From: Streptomyces deccanensis | GTDB lineage: Bacteria; Actinomycetota; Actinomycetes; Streptomycetales; Streptomycetaceae | Assembly (NCBI RefSeq): GCF_022385335.1 | Contig: NZ_CP092431.1 | Location: forward strand, 7,192,001-7,256,000 | Direction: 5' to 3' | Length of the DNA stretch: 64,000 nt | Part shown: positions 17,191 to 23,978 of the stretch, piece by piece | How positions within the stretch are numbered: position 1 is the stretch's first letter | Layout: the number at the start of each line of letters is the position of its first letter | The notes under the pieces: model-generated | Told to the model about the DNA's origin: nothing | Seen by the model: the letters and a program-made list of their open reading frames with translations, nothing else | Database searches by the model: none | Program-made: the position numbers and the translations under genes

Positions 17191-17811
17191 ATGGGACACC
17201 GTGAGGATCTGCTCGAAGGCGCCAAGCGTTGCCTGCTGGAGAAGGGGTTCGCGCGGACGACCGCGCGCGACGTCGTCAGGGAGTCGGGGACGAACCTGGC
17301 GTCCATCGGCTACCACTACGGTTCGAAGGACGCGTTGCTGGCGCAGGCGTACGTGGCGATGGTCGAGGAGGTCTCGGACACCTTCGAGGGCGGCGGGGCG
17401 GTCGGCAGCGACAGTGATCCCGGCTCCGTCGAACGGTTCCGCGAGGTGTGGGCGAACGCCGTGGAGACCATGCGGGCGCCGGGTTCGATGTGGCGGCTCA
17501 GCATGGAGGTGCTGGCCATGGGGGACCAACTCCCGGAGGTGCGCGAGCATCTGGCGCGGGCCCAGCGGGAGGCCGCGCGCGGGATCGTGACGCTGTTCAT
17601 GGGCGGCCGGGACGAGGAGATCACGGACGCGGCGGCGGACACGCTCGGCCGCTTCTACCTCACCCTTCTGCTGGGCCTTGTCGCCCAGTGGACCTTCGAC
17701 CCCGACACCGCACCCGACGCCGAGGCCCTCACCGAGGGGCTCCGCCAGGTGATGGAGGTGGCGAAGGGCCAGGGTGGCGTCGCGGCGAAGGACCGGGGCG
17801 GCATCGTCTAG
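17191..17811 (+). CDS. TetR-family transcriptional regulator
   Basis: 206 aa. The N-terminal HTH covers residues ~1-50 (LLEGAKRCLLEKGFARTTARDVV, GYHYGSKDALL). The C-terminal helical ligand-binding domain resembles the TetR_C_6 type. It converges on the ABC importer operon and shares its final four bases (CTAG, 17808-17811) with the last ATPase gene, so both stop codons are TAG read from the same palindrome. Its position suggests a link to transport but does not prove one. Confidence 0.92.
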   Translation: MGHREDLLEGAKRCLLEKGFARTTARDVVRESGTNLASIGYHYGSKDALLAQAYVAMVEEVSDTFEGGGAVGSDSDPGSVERFREVWANAVETMRAPGSMWRLSMEVLAMGDQLPEVREHLARAQREAARGIVTLFMGGRDEEITDAAADTLGRFYLTLLLGLVAQWTFDPDTAPDAEALTEGLRQVMEVAKGQGGVAAKDRGGIV

Positions 17812-18509
17812 GCCGTGGCGGTCCGGGCGGCCGGTACGAGTCTTCCGGCGCGCATCTCGATCGAGCGGTCCGCGAAGTGGCGTACGACCGCGCGGTCGTG
17901 GCAGATGAAGAGGTAGCCGAGGTTCAGCTCGTCCTGGAGGTCGGCGAGCAGGTTGAGGACGCCGGCCCGGATGGAGGGGTCCAGGGCGGACACCGGCTCG
18001 TCGAGCACCAGCAGGCGTGGCTCGGACGCCAACGCCCGTGCGATGCCGACCCGTTGGCACTGACCGCCGGACAACTCGTGCGGGAAGCGGTCGCCGAGGG
18101 CCGGGCTCAGGCCGACCCGGTCCAGGAGTCCGGCGACCCGGGCGGGGCCCGTGGCGTCCCAGCGGCCCTGCACGCGCAGGGGTTCCGCCACCGCCTCCCG
18201 GACGCGGTGGCGAGGGCTGAGCGAGCCGTACGGGTCCTGGAAGACCGGCTGCATACGGGGCCGGAGCGCGCGCAGCTCGCGTTCGGTCAGGGAGGTCAAC
18301 TCCCGCCCCTCGAAGTGGACTTCGCCACCGTCAGGGCGGCGCAGCCGGAGCACGGCGGCGACCGTGGAGGACTTTCCGCAGCCGGACGGGCCGTTCAGGG
18401 CCAGCGTCTCGCCCGCCTCCACCGTGAAGGACACCCGGTCGACGGCGGTGACCGGGCCGTAGCGGACGACCAGGTCGCGCACGTCGAGCAGCGGGGCGTT
18501 CGGGTTCAC
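17808..18509 (-). CDS. ABC transporter ATP-binding protein (DppF/NikE-like)
   Basis: 233 aa. A cytoplasmic ATPase of a peptide/nickel-type importer with Walker A GPSGCGKS (~41-48), Q-loop PVFQDPYGSL, signature LSGGQCQRVGIARAL and Walker B LLVLDEPVSALD. It is shorter than typical DppF because it lacks the C-terminal oligopeptide extension. It overlaps the preceding ATPase gene by 4 bases (ATGA-type), so the two are probably translated together as a heterodimer. Confidence 0.93.
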   Translation of the reverse strand: MNPNAPLLDVRDLVVRYGPVTAVDRVSFTVEAGETLALNGPSGCGKSSTVAAVLRLRRPDGGEVHFEGRELTSLTERELRALRPRMQPVFQDPYGSLSPRHRVREAVAEPLRVQGRWDATGPARVAGLLDRVGLSPALGDRFPHELSGGQCQRVGIARALASEPRLLVLDEPVSALDPSIRAGVLNLLADLQDELNLGYLFICHDRAVVRHFADRSIEMRAGRLVPAARTATA

Positions 18510-19813
18510 GCGGGCTCCAGGAACAAGTCGGTCGCGGGGTGCGGGACTTCGTCCCAGCGGTGGCAGGAGACCTCATGCCCGTCCCTGGCCGTCCACGGCC
18601 GCGGTTCCTCGCGGCGGCAGCGGTCCTCCACGAGCGGGCAGCGCGGCGCGAAGGCGCAGCCCGGCGGGAGGGCGTCGGGGGCGGGCGGGGATCCGGGGAT
18701 GGAGGGCAGCCGACGGCGACGGCGGCGGCCGGGACCGGTGTCATCGTGGTCGCGATCGCCGTTGCCTCCGCCGAGGTCGCCGTCGTCCGGTGGGAGCGAC
18801 GCCAGCAGGCCCGCCGTGTACGGCGCCCGGGGGCGGCCCCACACGGTCGCCGCCGGGCCCTGTTCGACCTGACGTCCGGCGTACATCACCAGCACGCGGT
18901 CGGCGTGTTCCCGGACCACGCCCAGGTCATGGGTGACCAGCACGAGCGCGGCGCCGACGGCCTCCCGCTGGGCGGCGAGGACCCGCAGCACCTGTTCCTG
19001 GAGTTCCGCGTCGAGCGCGGTCGTGGGCTCGTCCGCGACGACGACATCGGGTTCGTTGATCGTCGCCATGGCGATCACGGCCCGCTGGCGCATGCCGCCG
19101 GAGTACTCGTGCGGATACGCCCGCGCCCTGCGTACGGCATCGGGGATGCCCACCCGGTCGAGCGCGGCGACCGCCCGGGCGCGGGCCTCCTTGCGCGAGA
19201 CGCGCGCCACCGACCGTACGGCCGCGGCGAGTTGGTCGCCCACGGGGTGCACGGGGGACAGCGCCGACAACGCGTCCTGGGGGACCAGGGCGATACGTCG
19301 GCCCCGCTGGGCGGCGAGGTCCGCGTCCCCGCGCAGTCGTACGGTTCCGCTGCTCGTCGCGCCCTCGGGCAGCATCCCGAGCAGCGCCCGGGCCGTGAGG
19401 GACTTGCCCGCGCCCGACTCGCCCACCAGCGCGAGCACTTCGCGCGGCCGCACGTCGAAGGACAGCCCCCGCACGGCCTCGACCCCACCGAACGCGACCC
19501 GCAGCCCGCGCACGGAGAGCAGCACGTCGGAGGCGGGCGATGCGGCGGACGCGGGCGATGCGGCGGAGGTCGGTCGTCCGTCCGTGGCCGGTGACACGGT
19601 GGAGGCCGGTGGCGCGTCGGACCCAGGCGGCGCGTCGGAGTCCGGCGGCAGGTCGGAGGTCGGCGCCGCGCCGGACCTGGGCGGCCCATCTGACGGGTGC
19701 GGCCCCGACGACGGCGGCGGCCCGTCTGACGGGTGCGGTCCATCTGACGGCGGCGGCCCATCCGACGTAGGCGGCACGTCGGACCTCTGGGGCGGTTCAG
19801 ACTTCGGTGGCAC
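18506..19813 (-). CDS. ABC transporter ATP-binding protein (DppD/NikD-like) with repetitive N-terminal linker
   Basis: About 435 aa. Residues 1-95 are a low-complexity Ser/Asp/Gly/Pro tract largely encoded by 18-bp repeats. The ATPase domain then starts at DVLLSVRGLRV, with Walker A GESGAGKS (131-138), signature YSGGMRQRAVIAMA, Walker B VVADEPTTALD, and the C-terminal oligopeptide-transporter extension CAFAPRCPLVEDRC. GTG 19813 is chosen because CAGAGGTCCGAC precedes it; an equivalent GTG lies a little downstream in the same context. It overlaps the permease stop by 17 bases, implying translational coupling. The true start could also be nearer the ATPase domain. Confidence 0.88.
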   Translation of the reverse strand: MPPKSEPPQRSDVPPTSDGPPPSDGPHPSDGPPPSSGPHPSDGPPRSGAAPTSDLPPDSDAPPGSDAPPASTVSPATDGRPTSAASPASAASPASDVLLSVRGLRVAFGGVEAVRGLSFDVRPREVLALVGESGAGKSLTARALLGMLPEGATSSGTVRLRGDADLAAQRGRRIALVPQDALSALSPVHPVGDQLAAAVRSVARVSRKEARARAVAALDRVGIPDAVRRARAYPHEYSGGMRQRAVIAMATINEPDVVVADEPTTALDAELQEQVLRVLAAQREAVGAALVLVTHDLGVVREHADRVLVMYAGRQVEQGPAATVWGRPRAPYTAGLLASLPPDDGDLGGGNGDRDHDDTGPGRRRRRRLPSIPGSPPAPDALPPGCAFAPRCPLVEDRCRREEPRPWTARDGHEVSCHRWDEVPHPATDLFLEPA

Positions 19814-19823
19814 GTCGGACCTC
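19680..19823. repeat. 18-bp tandem repeat, about eight units, spanning two overlapping gene ends
   Basis: Eight imperfect 18-base units run from 19680 (unit boundaries 19680, 19698, 19716, 19734, 19752, 19770, 19788, 19806). On the minus strand they encode hexapeptides such as SDGPPP in the ATPase N-terminus. The last units also encode the final residues of the permease in another frame and contain both candidate GTG starts. Confidence 0.88.
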
Positions 19824-21746
19824 TGCTGTGACTTCAACGGATGTGCTCCCCTTCGCCCTGTGGGCCCGACCGGGTTTCCGCGTGGGGCGGGCCGTCCGTG
19901 ATTGCGCGTACGCCGCCCCCGACACCGCGAGGCCCGCCAGCAGGGCCAGGGCGACCGCCGGTGCCAGGGCCGCCCACGGCGCGCGTTCGACGTAGGCACG
20001 TGACTCGTCGAGGAGCAACCCCCACTCCGGGGTGGGTGGTTGGGCTCCGAGGCCCAGGAAGCCGAGGGAGGCGAGGGCCAGGGCGATGCCCGGGAGGCGC
20101 AGGACGGCGTGCCGGGCGACGGGGGCGGCGACCGACGGGAGGACGTGCCGGGTGAGGATCCACCACGGGCTCGCGCCGATCGCCCGCTGGGCGGTCAGGA
20201 ACGCGGACGCGCGGACCTCCTGCACCAGCGCCGCCGCGTGCGCGGACAGGGCGGGCCAGGAGATCAGGGCCACGGCGAGGGCCGCGCCGCCCGTGCCGGG
20301 GCCGGCCACCGCGGCGACGAGGATGCCGACGATCACCGGAGGCAGCGCGTTGGCGATGTCCGCCGCGCCCGCCGCGACCCGGGGCAGGAAGCCGAGGGCC
20401 AGGGAGACGAGGAGGCTCAGGGCGCAGACCGCCGCCGCCGTGCCGACCGTGGTGGCCGCACCGTGGCCGAGGCGGGCCAGGACGTCACGGCCGAGCCCGT
20501 CCGTGCCGAGCGGGTGCGCCCAGGACGGCGGGAAGAGACGGGCGGTGGTGTCCACGGCGTACGGGTCGCGCAGCAGACCCCAGCCCACGGTGACCAGGAG
20601 GACGGCCGCCAGGGTCAGCGGGATCGCGGGGTGGACGCGGACCGGGCGGGCCGGCGGCAGGGTGAGGCCCGCGTCGCGCAGGGCCGGGCCGAGGAGCCGC
20701 CGCCGGGCGAGGGTGGCCAGGGCGCCCGCGACCAGGCCCAGGGCGAGGAGGGCGAGGACCGCGCCCTGGAGGAGGGGGATGTCCTGGGACTTGGCCGCGC
20801 CCAGTGCGGTACGGCCGATGCCGGGCACCGCGAACACCATCTCCACGGCGACCGCGCCGCCGGTCAGGCCGACGGCGGCCATGCCGAACTGCGGTACCAG
20901 GGGCGGCAGTACGCGGCGCAGCGCGGCCGCCGAGACCCGGGCCCGGCTCACGCCCGCGCCGCGCCACAGCTCCACCCAGCGTTCGTCGAGCACGGCGGGC
21001 AGCGCGTCCGCGACCAGGCGGCCCAGCAGACCGCCGGCCGGGACACCGAGGGCGATCGCGGGCAGCACGAGGTACTCCGGGCCCGCCCAGCCTGACGTGG
21101 GCAGCCAGCCCAGCCAGACCCCGCAGACCAGCAGCGCCACCGTGGCCAGCAGGAACTCGGGGACGGCGGCGAGCATCGCGGCGAACGCGCCGGCCGACCC
21201 CCGGCCCCGCAGGAGCACCGGGGCGACCAGTGCGCAGGCCAGCAGGAGGGCGACGGCGAAGGCGGTGCCCATCAGGCCGAGGGAGACCTGGAGGCCGGAG
21301 ACCACCGAGGGCAGGACGTCCGTGCCCGACACCCATGACGTGCCGAGGTCGCCGCGCAGCAGTCCGGCGGCCCAACGCCCCAACAGGGAAAGGGGGCCCG
21401 CGCCGAGGCCCAGGTCCTCGCGGATCGCGGCCAGCGCCTCGGGCGTCGCCTCCTGCTCGGCCGACCGGGCGCGCAGCACGGTCAGCGCGGGGTCACGGCC
21501 GGACAGCCACGGCAGCAGACCGACGGCGGTCAGCGCGGCGAGGAGACAGAGGAGGCGGGTCAGCCCGGTGGCCCCGACCAGCGCCCCGACGAGGCGCCGC
21601 CCCCACCCGGTCCCGCTTGCTCCGGCCCCACGAGCCCACCGAACGGCTCCGACCGCCTCGGCGGCGGTTCGGGCGTCGCGTGCCCCGGCCGCCGATGAGC
21701 CTGCGGTCGGTTCGCCTGCGGTCGGTGCGTCTGTGGGCGTGCTCAC
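19797..21746 (-). CDS. Fused ABC permease (DppB-like + DppC-like halves)
   Basis: 649 aa and two permease domains in one chain. The N-terminal half has the DppB-type membrane region (LGLGAGPLSLLGRWAAGLLRGDLG and an EAA-type loop near WVELWRGAGVSRARVSAAALR). The C-terminal half is DppC-like (HPLGTDGLGRDVLARLGHG, SAFLTAQRAIGASPWWILTRH). These are normally separate subunits, so this is a natural fusion. The start GTG 21746 overlaps the binding-protein stop by 4 bases. It would form the membrane channel for the cognate binding protein and both ATPases. Confidence 0.92.
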   Translation of the reverse strand: MSTPTDAPTAGEPTAGSSAAGARDARTAAEAVGAVRWARGAGASGTGWGRRLVGALVGATGLTRLLCLLAALTAVGLLPWLSGRDPALTVLRARSAEQEATPEALAAIREDLGLGAGPLSLLGRWAAGLLRGDLGTSWVSGTDVLPSVVSGLQVSLGLMGTAFAVALLLACALVAPVLLRGRGSAGAFAAMLAAVPEFLLATVALLVCGVWLGWLPTSGWAGPEYLVLPAIALGVPAGGLLGRLVADALPAVLDERWVELWRGAGVSRARVSAAALRRVLPPLVPQFGMAAVGLTGGAVAVEMVFAVPGIGRTALGAAKSQDIPLLQGAVLALLALGLVAGALATLARRRLLGPALRDAGLTLPPARPVRVHPAIPLTLAAVLLVTVGWGLLRDPYAVDTTARLFPPSWAHPLGTDGLGRDVLARLGHGAATTVGTAAAVCALSLLVSLALGFLPRVAAGAADIANALPPVIVGILVAAVAGPGTGGAALAVALISWPALSAHAAALVQEVRASAFLTAQRAIGASPWWILTRHVLPSVAAPVARHAVLRLPGIALALASLGFLGLGAQPPTPEWGLLLDESRAYVERAPWAALAPAVALALLAGLAVSGAAYAQSRTARPTRKPGRAHRAKGSTSVEVTAEVRRATEV

Positions 21747-23233
21747 TTGACGTAGGTGTCGGCCGTGACCAGTTCCCGCTCGCGCGGGTCGTGGGCCGCG
21801 TCCACGACTCCGGACGCGTCGCCCTGGATGACGCGCTCGTGCAGCATCGGCACGGCCGCGTCGGTGGTGAGGACGGCGGCCTCGGCGTCGATCACGGCCC
21901 GGCGGCGGGCGTCACCGGCGGCGGTGTCGGAGGCCCGGTCGAGGGCGGTGTCCACGGTCTTGTCCGCGAGCTGGGCGATGTTGAAGGAGCCGTCGGAGGC
22001 GAAGTCGCTGTAGAGGTACGCGGCCGGGTCACCGGAGTCGAGGACGGTCGCCCGGGAGAGGATGAACGCGTCGAACTCGCCCGCGAGCGCGTCGGACTCG
22101 ATGTTGGCGTACTCGCGCACGTCGAGCTTCACCTTGAACCCGGCCTTCTGCAGCTGCTGTTGCAGCGTGGCGGCGACCTCGGGCAGCTCGGCGCGGTCGG
22201 TGAACGTGCCGATGGTGATGGACTGGCCGTCCGGGTCCCCCGCTTCGGCGCGCTTCACCGGTGACCGCAGTTCGGCGGCCCACGGGAGCGCGGGCCCGAG
22301 GAGCCCCTCGGCGACGTCCGCACGCCCCTCGTACACGCCCTTCACGATCGACTCGGCGTCGACGGCCTCGCGGGCGGCGGCGCGCAGCGAGGCGTCCTTG
22401 AACACGCCCTTCTCGGTGTTCAGATAGAGGGTGTTGGTGCGAGGCATCGGGACCTCGGTGATCAGGTCCTGGTCGAGCACGGCGGCCTGCGACACCGGGA
22501 CCGCCTCGACGATGTCGGCCTCGCCGCTGCGCAGGGAGGCCGCGCGGGCGGTGCCGTCCGGCACGTACTTCACGTCGATCCCGGGGGCCTTGGCCTTGCC
22601 GCCCCAGTAGTCGTCGTAGCGGTCGAGGGCGGCGGAGGCGGTGCCGTTGACCTCGGTCAGCTCGAAGGGGCCGGTGCCGGCGCCGAGCGGGTTCACCGTC
22701 TTCCCCTCGTACGCCTTCGCCGCGAGGATCGACAGCTGCGGCGAGCTGAGGCGCTGCGGGACCAGCGGGTCCTCGACCGCCGTGGTGACGGTGACGGTGT
22801 CGCCGTCGGCCTTCGCGGTGAGCTCCACGCCGTCGAGGATGCGGGGCTTGGGGGAGGCGGTGGCCGCCTCGGTGAGGGAGTTGACGACGGCCTCACCCGT
22901 CAGCTTCGTACCGTCGTGGAACGTCACGCCCTTCCGGATCGTGAACGTCCACTTCTTGCCCGAGCGCTTCCACTCGGTGGCGAGCGCGGGCTGCGCGTCG
23001 CCCTCCGCGTTCAGCTTCACCAGGGTCTCCGCGGTCGACCAGCGGGACAGCTTGAACGCGTCGTCGGAGAGCGGCGACAGGCCCGAGCGGGGCGGCAGCA
23101 TCATCGCGATCCGTATCCGCTTGCCCTCGCTCCCGGCCTCCTCGGGGCCCGTTGCCGAGAAGCAGCCCGTGAGCAGGGCGGAGGTCGCGGTGGTGACCGC
23201 GGTGAGCGGGACGAAACGGGCCGGGACGCGCAC
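21743..23233 (-). CDS. ABC transporter substrate-binding lipoprotein, family 5
   Basis: 496 aa. Signal peptide with lipobox LLTGC (Cys about 24), then a family-5 (peptide/nickel/opine) binding domain: ALATEWKRSGKKWTFTIRKGVTFHDGTKLT, DDYWGG, LYLNTEKGVFKD. It is the first gene of a four-gene importer operon. GTG 23233 has GGAG at 6-base spacing. A Zur-type operator in the promoter suggests zinc-responsive control and hence uptake of zinc, a zinc chelate or a metallophore; peptides remain possible. Confidence 0.92.
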   Translation of the reverse strand: MRVPARFVPLTAVTTATSALLTGCFSATGPEEAGSEGKRIRIAMMLPPRSGLSPLSDDAFKLSRWSTAETLVKLNAEGDAQPALATEWKRSGKKWTFTIRKGVTFHDGTKLTGEAVVNSLTEAATASPKPRILDGVELTAKADGDTVTVTTAVEDPLVPQRLSSPQLSILAAKAYEGKTVNPLGAGTGPFELTEVNGTASAALDRYDDYWGGKAKAPGIDVKYVPDGTARAASLRSGEADIVEAVPVSQAAVLDQDLITEVPMPRTNTLYLNTEKGVFKDASLRAAAREAVDAESIVKGVYEGRADVAEGLLGPALPWAAELRSPVKRAEAGDPDGQSITIGTFTDRAELPEVAATLQQQLQKAGFKVKLDVREYANIESDALAGEFDAFILSRATVLDSGDPAAYLYSDFASDGSFNIAQLADKTVDTALDRASDTAAGDARRRAVIDAEAAVLTTDAAVPMLHERVIQGDASGVVDAAHDPRERELVTADTYVK

Positions 23234-23277
23234 GGGACACTCCGAGTAAAGGCGTGGTCAAAGATTCAACGTGCCTG

Positions 23278-23306
23278 ACCGTAACACGATGACAATCATT
23301 TTCAGA
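23278..23306 (-). promoter_or_regulatory. Promoter with Zur-type operator upstream of the ABC importer
   Basis: On the minus strand, TGAAAATGATTGTCA (23304-23290) is a 7-1-7 inverted repeat with one mismatch between its arms. It differs at one position from the mycobacterial Zur consensus as I recall it. It lies between a -35-like TCTGAA (23306-23301) and a -10 TACGGT (23283-23278) spaced 17 bases apart, a position suited to repression. The binding-protein start codon is 45 bases further downstream. Confidence 0.78.
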
Positions 23307-23396
23307 AGCGCGGTTTTGCGCCACCACGATGCCGCCACCCGACCCCGAACACGCAGGCCGGAGGGCATTGTCAGTGCCCCCTGCCATGGTGGGGCC

Positions 23397-23978
23397 GTGG
23401 ACGACGAGACCTTCTGGGACGTGATCGAGGGCTGCCGACGGGCGACGCGGGACCCCGACGAGCGGTCGGAGTGGCTGCGCGGGCGGCTGGCGGGCCGGCC
23501 GGAGGCCGAGATACTGCGGTTCCAGACGATCCTGGACCGCGTGTTGGCCCCCTCGCTCACCTGGGACCTGTGGGGCGCCGCCGACCGGATCATGGGCTGG
23601 TGCTCGGACGACAGCTTCTTCTACTTCCGCCTCTGGCTGGTCGGTCTGGGCCGGGACGGGTTCGACCGGGCCGTCCGAGACCCTGACTCCTTGGCCGACG
23701 TGCCCGGGGTGCGACAGCTCGCGGGCCGCTCGCCGCAGCTCTGGGACGAGGAGGAGTGGCTGGACTGGGAGGAGTTGGACTATGTGGCCGCGCGGGCCTA
23801 CGCACACCTCTCGGGGCGTACGGAGGAGGACTTCTACGACGCCATGGACGAACTCGGCGGCGACGACCCCGAGTCGGGGGACCCGGCCGGTGAACGCTGG
23901 GACGCCTGCGACGACGAGGAGTCGCACCGCCGTCTGCCCCGCCTCAGCGCGCTGTTCCCGCTCTCCTCGGCGAGTTGA
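23397..23978 (+). CDS. DUF4240-like protein
   Basis: 193 aa, strongly acidic. It begins DDETFWDVIEGCRRATRD and contains conserved Trp/Asp-rich blocks (LTWDLWGAADRIMGWCSDDSFFYFRLWLVGLG, ARAYAHLSG), the pattern of DUF4240 proteins often found as Streptomyces orphans. No enzyme motif is seen and the function is unknown. GTG 23397 is the first start that matches the family; the frame is open further upstream across the Zur-type site, which is probably non-coding. It is divergent from the ABC importer. Confidence 0.8.
   Translation: MDDETFWDVIEGCRRATRDPDERSEWLRGRLAGRPEAEILRFQTILDRVLAPSLTWDLWGAADRIMGWCSDDSFFYFRLWLVGLGRDGFDRAVRDPDSLADVPGVRQLAGRSPQLWDEEEWLDWEELDYVAARAYAHLSGRTEEDFYDAMDELGGDDPESGDPAGERWDACDDEESHRRLPRLSALFPLSSAS

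Follow-up and report, generated by a model that had tools for sequence, protein, structure and literature searches.

A Zur-type box in front of a nickel/peptide-type importer operon

The locus studied here raises the question of whether an ABC importer operon of the nickel/peptide type is controlled by the zinc-responsive repressor Zur and, if so, what the importer carries. It lies in a 64-kb stretch of Streptomyces deccanensis DNA, hereafter the window. Judging from Pfam profiles, the operon has the make-up that a first-pass annotation had proposed for it, with a family-5 binding protein, a double permease and two ATPases, all on the minus strand. The first gene (21743..23233) starts with GTG and encodes a solute-binding lipoprotein (SBP; PF00496, 220 bits) with the lipobox LLTGC. 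It is followed by a fused double permease (19797..21746), in which two BPD_transp_1 stretches are part of one polypeptide, by ATPase 1 (18506..19999; PF00005 and oligo_HPY) and by ATPase 2 (17808..18509; PF00005, 108 bits). SBP_bac_5, BPD_transp_1 and ABC_tran were all matched above their gathering scores (220, 107, 91 and 108 bits), and the architecture is that of an importer. SBP and permease genes overlap by 4 bp (21743-21746), as do the two ATPase genes (18506-18509). The true start of ATPase 1 is uncertain, as the open reading frame shows homology to ATPases only from about residue 160 onwards. The start of this frame contains 18- and 36-base tandem repeats (19528-19784), which encode a Pro/Ser/Asp-rich stretch ahead of the domain. 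A TetR-family gene (17191..17811, plus strand; PF00440) converges on the operon, as annotated, and nothing in our analysis ties it to operon control. Other zinc genes do not adjoin the operon within the 64-kb window.

The operon fell below the cut-off of every specific model to which we compared it. The closest NCBIfam model of the SBP was Opp5A_nikA (NF045468) with 217 of the 600 bits required, and the NikA model TIGR02294 was matched with 118 of 393 bits. Models of the staphylopine importer were likewise missed (CntA, 69 of 800 bits; CntC, 88 of 440), also by ATPase 1 (CntD, 194 of 380; CntF, 195 of 385). The first half of the permease resembles NikB/Opp2B and the second half NikC/Opp2C, and dipeptide and glutathione models were matched as well, all below cut-off. 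Among solved chains, the nickel-binding protein 3t66 ranked first and SaNikA third. An alignment of 43 SBPs contains no invariant histidine, and the sole invariant cysteine is that of the lipobox; a chelate would thus fit the binding protein better than bare zinc.

The box is the strongest Zur-type site found in the genome

A near-perfect 7-1-7 Zur box had been annotated at 23304-23290, and the 15-mer TGAAAATGATTGTCA is indeed found there (23290..23304, minus strand), 71 bp upstream of the GTG of the SBP gene. The pattern TGAAAATGATTTTCA, searched with up to three mismatches, occurs at this single place in the 64-kb window, compared to a mean of 0.01 in 100 shuffled windows. Within the 10.1-Mb single-contig genome, TGAAAATGATTNTCA has one exact match, the window box. 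Two places are one mismatch away, znuA and a second SBP5 gene (a paralogue), and those two mismatches away include a second znuA site, an L33/CobW locus and an ATP-grasp cluster (see below), together with sites that look like chance, e.g. one within a YggT-like gene. The window box also has no mismatch at the specified positions of the consensus tGaNNatSatNNtCa, which according to the available text of PMC5472717 was built from the 172 regions that Zur ChIP yielded in S. coelicolor.

To compare the site with known ones, a scoring matrix was trained solely on 49 boxes upstream of znuA from 30 Streptomyces genomes. With 30.9 bits, the window box ranks above all 49 training sites (11.6-28.0 bits), a set narrowed by its preselection at two mismatches or fewer to the published consensus. 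The runner-up in the window reached 9.8 bits, and 5 Mb of simulated sequence contained no site that attained the score of the window box. We infer that Zur binds at TGAAAATGATTGTCA. Four FUR-family genes are present in the genome, one of which (3383041-3383388) lies ~2 kb downstream of znuA and is, from this position, presumably zur. A further site elsewhere in the genome, TGAAAATGGATGTCA (L007 1501-1515; G000:C1:5321585), is identical to the znuA box 15-mer of two other genomes (L416 and L420). It precedes a CooC/MinD-like ATPase gene by ~47 bp, and on its other side lies a gene for a wall protein with a C-terminal LAETG motif (identified by eye).

The box is conserved in two clades of Streptomyces importers

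A search of 199 Streptomyces genomes identified homologues of the SBP in 90 of them at E 1e-40 or better, with 138 matches altogether. We read 131 of the matched loci, leaving out 7 partial or contig-end matches, and built a quick tree of 130 after dropping L191 (fewer than 380 residues). In clade A, to which the window belongs (34 rows, at least about 72% identity), the box was present with at most one mismatch to the S. coelicolor ChIP consensus in 34/34 upstream regions. The same was true for 21/21 loci of the paralogous clade B, its sister row L114 aside, whose upstream region is truncated where the contig ends. Of the 57 rows of clade C, among them a second paralogue of the genome itself, 13 had a box with at most one mismatch, 8 had two mismatches and 36 had more than two. 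Among the 15 rows of clade D, which include a third own paralogue, none was within one mismatch and a single one had two, and two rows of the tree fell outside clades A-D. Judging from clade D and the 36 of 57 clade C loci without a good box, the SBP family overall is not tied to zinc. Of 349 control stretches taken from other parts of the first 90 loci, 1 had a box with at most one mismatch, compared to 0 of 900 shuffled upstream regions; exactly two mismatches were seen 7 and 8 times, respectively. The column information across clade A averages 1.77 bits in the box, 1.1 in the next 15 bases and 0.2-0.3 in the 100 bases upstream.

Conservation upstream of orthologues, on which the annotated site depended, thus holds throughout clade A, and it extends to named relatives. 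Among the best 80 of 298 named Streptomyces relatives, of which S. caniscabiei is the closest (95%), 79 carry the box with at most one mismatch (23 with none, 56 with one) and the 80th with two. Given its proximity to S. caniscabiei, the species studied here probably stands close to the scab-associated Streptomyces. Searched across 392 genomes, the exact box pattern was present in 83, and its reversed control was absent from all of them.

Clades A and B never co-occur in one genome (34 and 21 of the 199; p 0.028), and they also differ in gene content: the ATPases of the fused-permease importers are present in clade A and absent from the clade B and C loci mapped. By tblastn, an MFS gene follows the permease in 4/4 clade B and 4/6 clade C loci mapped, and these ten loci have no ATPase of this kind in the operon. 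In the clade B loci L138 and L110, the run GNAT-like, SBP, fused permease, MFS stands between ispD/ispF-like and cysS-like genes (by eye). The second own SBP5 paralogue (L059 4238-9580; G000:C1:9370238 onward) shows 52% identity, has a box one mismatch off and lies in the same run, without such ATPases on that strand. In all three loci read (L138, L110 and L059), the SBP gene thus follows a GNAT-like gene. The MFS proteins have MdtH as their nearest model, below cut-off. Genes in these loci were called by codon-position G+C, which missed or mis-framed some of them; key genes were confirmed by Pfam or tblastn, and the enolase-like gene mentioned below and some GNAT-like genes were named by eye. 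Convergent TetR genes were called in 12 of 24 clade A loci by this simple gene caller, which can miss genes. Apart from these loci, L191 (G141:C2:7096677-7097078) encodes a 134-residue clade A-like SBP fragment of 67% identity, has an exact Zur box ~270 bp away, at 7097349, and is perhaps a decayed copy.

The box abuts an extended -10 element

The first-pass annotation had placed the box between a -35 and a -10 element. Its downstream half stands in a modified form: an extended -10 element, TGTTACGGT (23278..23286, minus strand), starts three bases past the Zur box, and its pattern TGnTAnnnT is conserved in 33/34 clade A upstream regions. The proposed -35 is doubtful, because a strict sigma-70 promoter and terminator scan gave no match and no -35 conservation was seen in the clade A upstream regions. 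As the extended -10 directly follows, the box would abut the -10 and cover the spacer/-35 region, a position that fits repression by occlusion. The divergent DUF4240 gene (~23394-23978) was considered as a target of the box and rejected: the 24 clade A loci mapped have no DUF4240 homologue beside the operon, and the box is kept.

Some related importers in other genera lie near zinc and MFS genes

We also drew 296 genomes from across the class. Of these, 25 had a homologue at E 1e-50, and 14 of the 25 belong to genera other than Streptomyces. Ten of these 14 show 61-71% identity and G660 shows 47%; in the remaining three, at 36-43%, the Streptomyces consensus was not matched with two mismatches or fewer. 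For the other eleven, we used the actinobacterial Zur core TGANAANNNTTNTCA, as quoted in the accessible part of PMC5472717. A Zur-like site with 0-2 mismatches to this core was found near the first importer gene in 9/11, with no mismatch in G636, G597, G574 and G465, one in G660 and G502, and two in G559, G416 and G572. The sites of G502 and G416 are unsure, as they overlap the region where the gene caller placed the start of an ATPase gene, and the importer promoters of G466 and G452 have no such site within two mismatches. Shuffles of two non-Streptomyces loci gave 0.25-0.3 two-mismatch sites per 12 kb and none better.

The gene context in some of these genera strengthens the earlier idea that the substrate is zinc or a zinc chelate. 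In G466 (L318 and L425; G466:C266:49830-71983), the importer shares ~22 kb with two P-type ATPases, an ArsR-type regulator, an MFS gene and genes for L33, CobW, S14 and L28; one of the two P-type ATPases matches a heavy-metal domain below threshold. The S. coelicolor Zur targets named in the available portion of PMC6103462 include a CobW-type gene as well as L33, L28 and S14 paralogues. G452 and G502 have part of this zinc neighbourhood. It speaks against the zinc reading that G466 and G452, with the most zinc-like surroundings, are the two loci without a Zur-like site at the importer promoter within two mismatches. The same ~22 kb of G466 encodes a 677-residue protein without a Pfam match, which has a relative in L428. 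Moreover, an MFS gene in or beside the importer of G416, G465, G660, G466, G452 and G502 is 35-41% identical to the MFS of the ATP-grasp cluster described next.

A candidate zincophore cluster elsewhere in the genome

This cluster (L058 5114-15063; G000:C1:1195114 onward) begins with a Zur-like site, followed by genes for an ATP-grasp ligase, a DUF364 protein, an SbnA-like enzyme (TIGR03945, 237 of 350 bits), an enolase-like protein (by eye) and an MFS protein, and continues with its own SBP5 and two permeases. DUF364 bears the Pfam label of putative heavy-metal chelation, and the ATP-grasp/DUF364/SbnA-like run is a candidate zincophore cluster. The ATP-grasp ligase occurs in 52 of the 199 Streptomyces genomes. 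Its upstream site is present with at most two mismatches in 32/34 close Streptomyces loci whose upstream region was read and in 0/23 more distant homologues (about 36-44% identity). In the genome studied here, it scores 11.3 bits on the znuA matrix, a value that ~44 sites per genome are expected to reach, and the case for this putative Zur site is its conservation in the 32 of 34 loci. With kinship ignored, the ligase was found in 17/34 clade A genomes compared to 35/165 others (p 0.001) and in 8/21 clade B genomes (p 0.20). We set this co-occurrence aside as evidence on the substrate, because it is uncorrected for kinship and clade B lacks the association.

The operon probably encodes an importer of a zinc chelate

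Taken together, the conservation of the box in clades A and B, its quality and the zinc genes beside the importer in some relatives support a reading that we consider probable, namely that the operon encodes an ABC importer of the NikA/Opp type, repressed by Zur, which takes up a zinc chelate under zinc scarcity. We propose that this chelate is a zincophore of the cell or its neighbours, or zinc with an amino-acid or peptide ligand, a view of the substrate that draws on regulation and gene context. With zinc present, zinc-loaded Zur would occupy the box abutting the extended -10 and block RNA polymerase, as suggested by the quality, position and conservation of the box. When zinc drops, Zur would be released and the four genes transcribed as a single unit, as the overlapping gene ends suggest. 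The lipoprotein would then bind the complexed metal, with the fused permease as the channel and the two ATPases powering uptake.

SBP5/Opp importers commonly carry peptides, and the below-cut-off matches to dipeptide and glutathione models would agree with a Zur-repressed importer of metal-free peptides or amino acids, serving salvage or the supply of ligands, with no zinc passing through the pump. We regard this as unlikely, since the best model and the best solved chains are those of nickel-chelate binders and since zinc and metal-pump genes adjoin the importer in some genera. Less likely still is an importer of nickel or cobalt, or control by a different member of the FUR family with a similar recognition site. 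Opp5A_nikA being the best model and the genome having four FUR-family genes speak for such a scenario, but both NikA cut-offs are missed (217 of 600 and 118 of 393 bits), the box scores alongside znuA sites, and the Nur motif differs from the Zur motif. A short motif in a large genome may also arise by chance or persist as a functionless relic. For the window box this is highly improbable: none of the sites in 5 Mb of simulated sequence reached its score, all 34 orthologues retain it while their flanks diverge, and the exact pattern recurs across genomes in which the reversed control is absent.

Returning to the zinc-chelate importer, a more far-reaching idea can be put forward as speculation, and we think it rather unlikely. 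The importer family and its MFS partner in relatives might constitute the uptake side of an actinobacterial zincophore system that is so far undescribed and has a non-opine ligand. The ATP-grasp/DUF364/SbnA-like/MFS cluster might make this or a related ligand, and fused-permease importers might harvest or compete for it among Streptomyces. The opine dehydrogenase profile PF10100 had no match in 20 genomes, the own one included, and was equally silent in the control genomes (0/14).

The strongest Zur box found in the genome would add a chelate-type importer to the likely zinc regulon of Streptomyces, which has so far been mapped in one model strain. If the importer carries a zincophore, the operon offers a way to trace that ligand, and it would indicate that soil actinobacteria compete for zinc chelates.

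Comparison with known systems

The operon shares its protein families with NikABCDE, and NikA-type proteins are its closest models and solved chains; it differs by falling below every curated cut-off, by its Zur-type box and by its fused permeases. CntABCDF of Staphylococcus aureus is likewise an SBP5/Opp-type importer, of the zinc chelate staphylopine, and CntE is the MFS exporter of the same system. A similar trait is seen among the relatives of the window operon, which often have an MFS gene in or beside the operon. In contrast, the window operon remains below the CntA, CntC, CntD and CntF cut-offs, and the MFS proteins of its relatives are nearest to MdtH. Opine zincophore clusters with dipeptide-type importers are described for some actinobacteria in the part of PMC7438024 available to us.

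With the S. coelicolor Zur regulon (znuABC, ribosomal paralogues, the coelibactin cluster and zitB), the operon has the same 7-1-7 box at the promoter in common. We found no Nik/Opp-type importer in the Streptomyces Zur regulon as described in the accessible text of PMC5472717 and PMC6103462; the supplementary ChIP table may name one. A parallel in regulation comes from C. diphtheriae. According to the available text of PMC6711530, dip2125-2128 and dip2162-2165 are importers of this type that are down with zinc and up in a zur mutant. The nik1 and nik2 loci are related to nickel, peptide and metallophore importers in the excerpt available of PMC12445094, and dip2125-2128 and dip2162-2165 probably correspond to nik2 and nik1, respectively. 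As in the window, these are operons of SBP, permease and ATPase genes of the peptide/nickel type, repressed by zinc and Zur, for which zinc chelates have been suggested (PMC6711530 and PMC12445094, as far as available). They differ in that their permease genes are separate, whereas the window operon has a fused protein and is known from sequence. Thus, Zur-repressed importers of this type are already published in C. diphtheriae, judging from the accessible parts of these two reports, and the window operon would add one.
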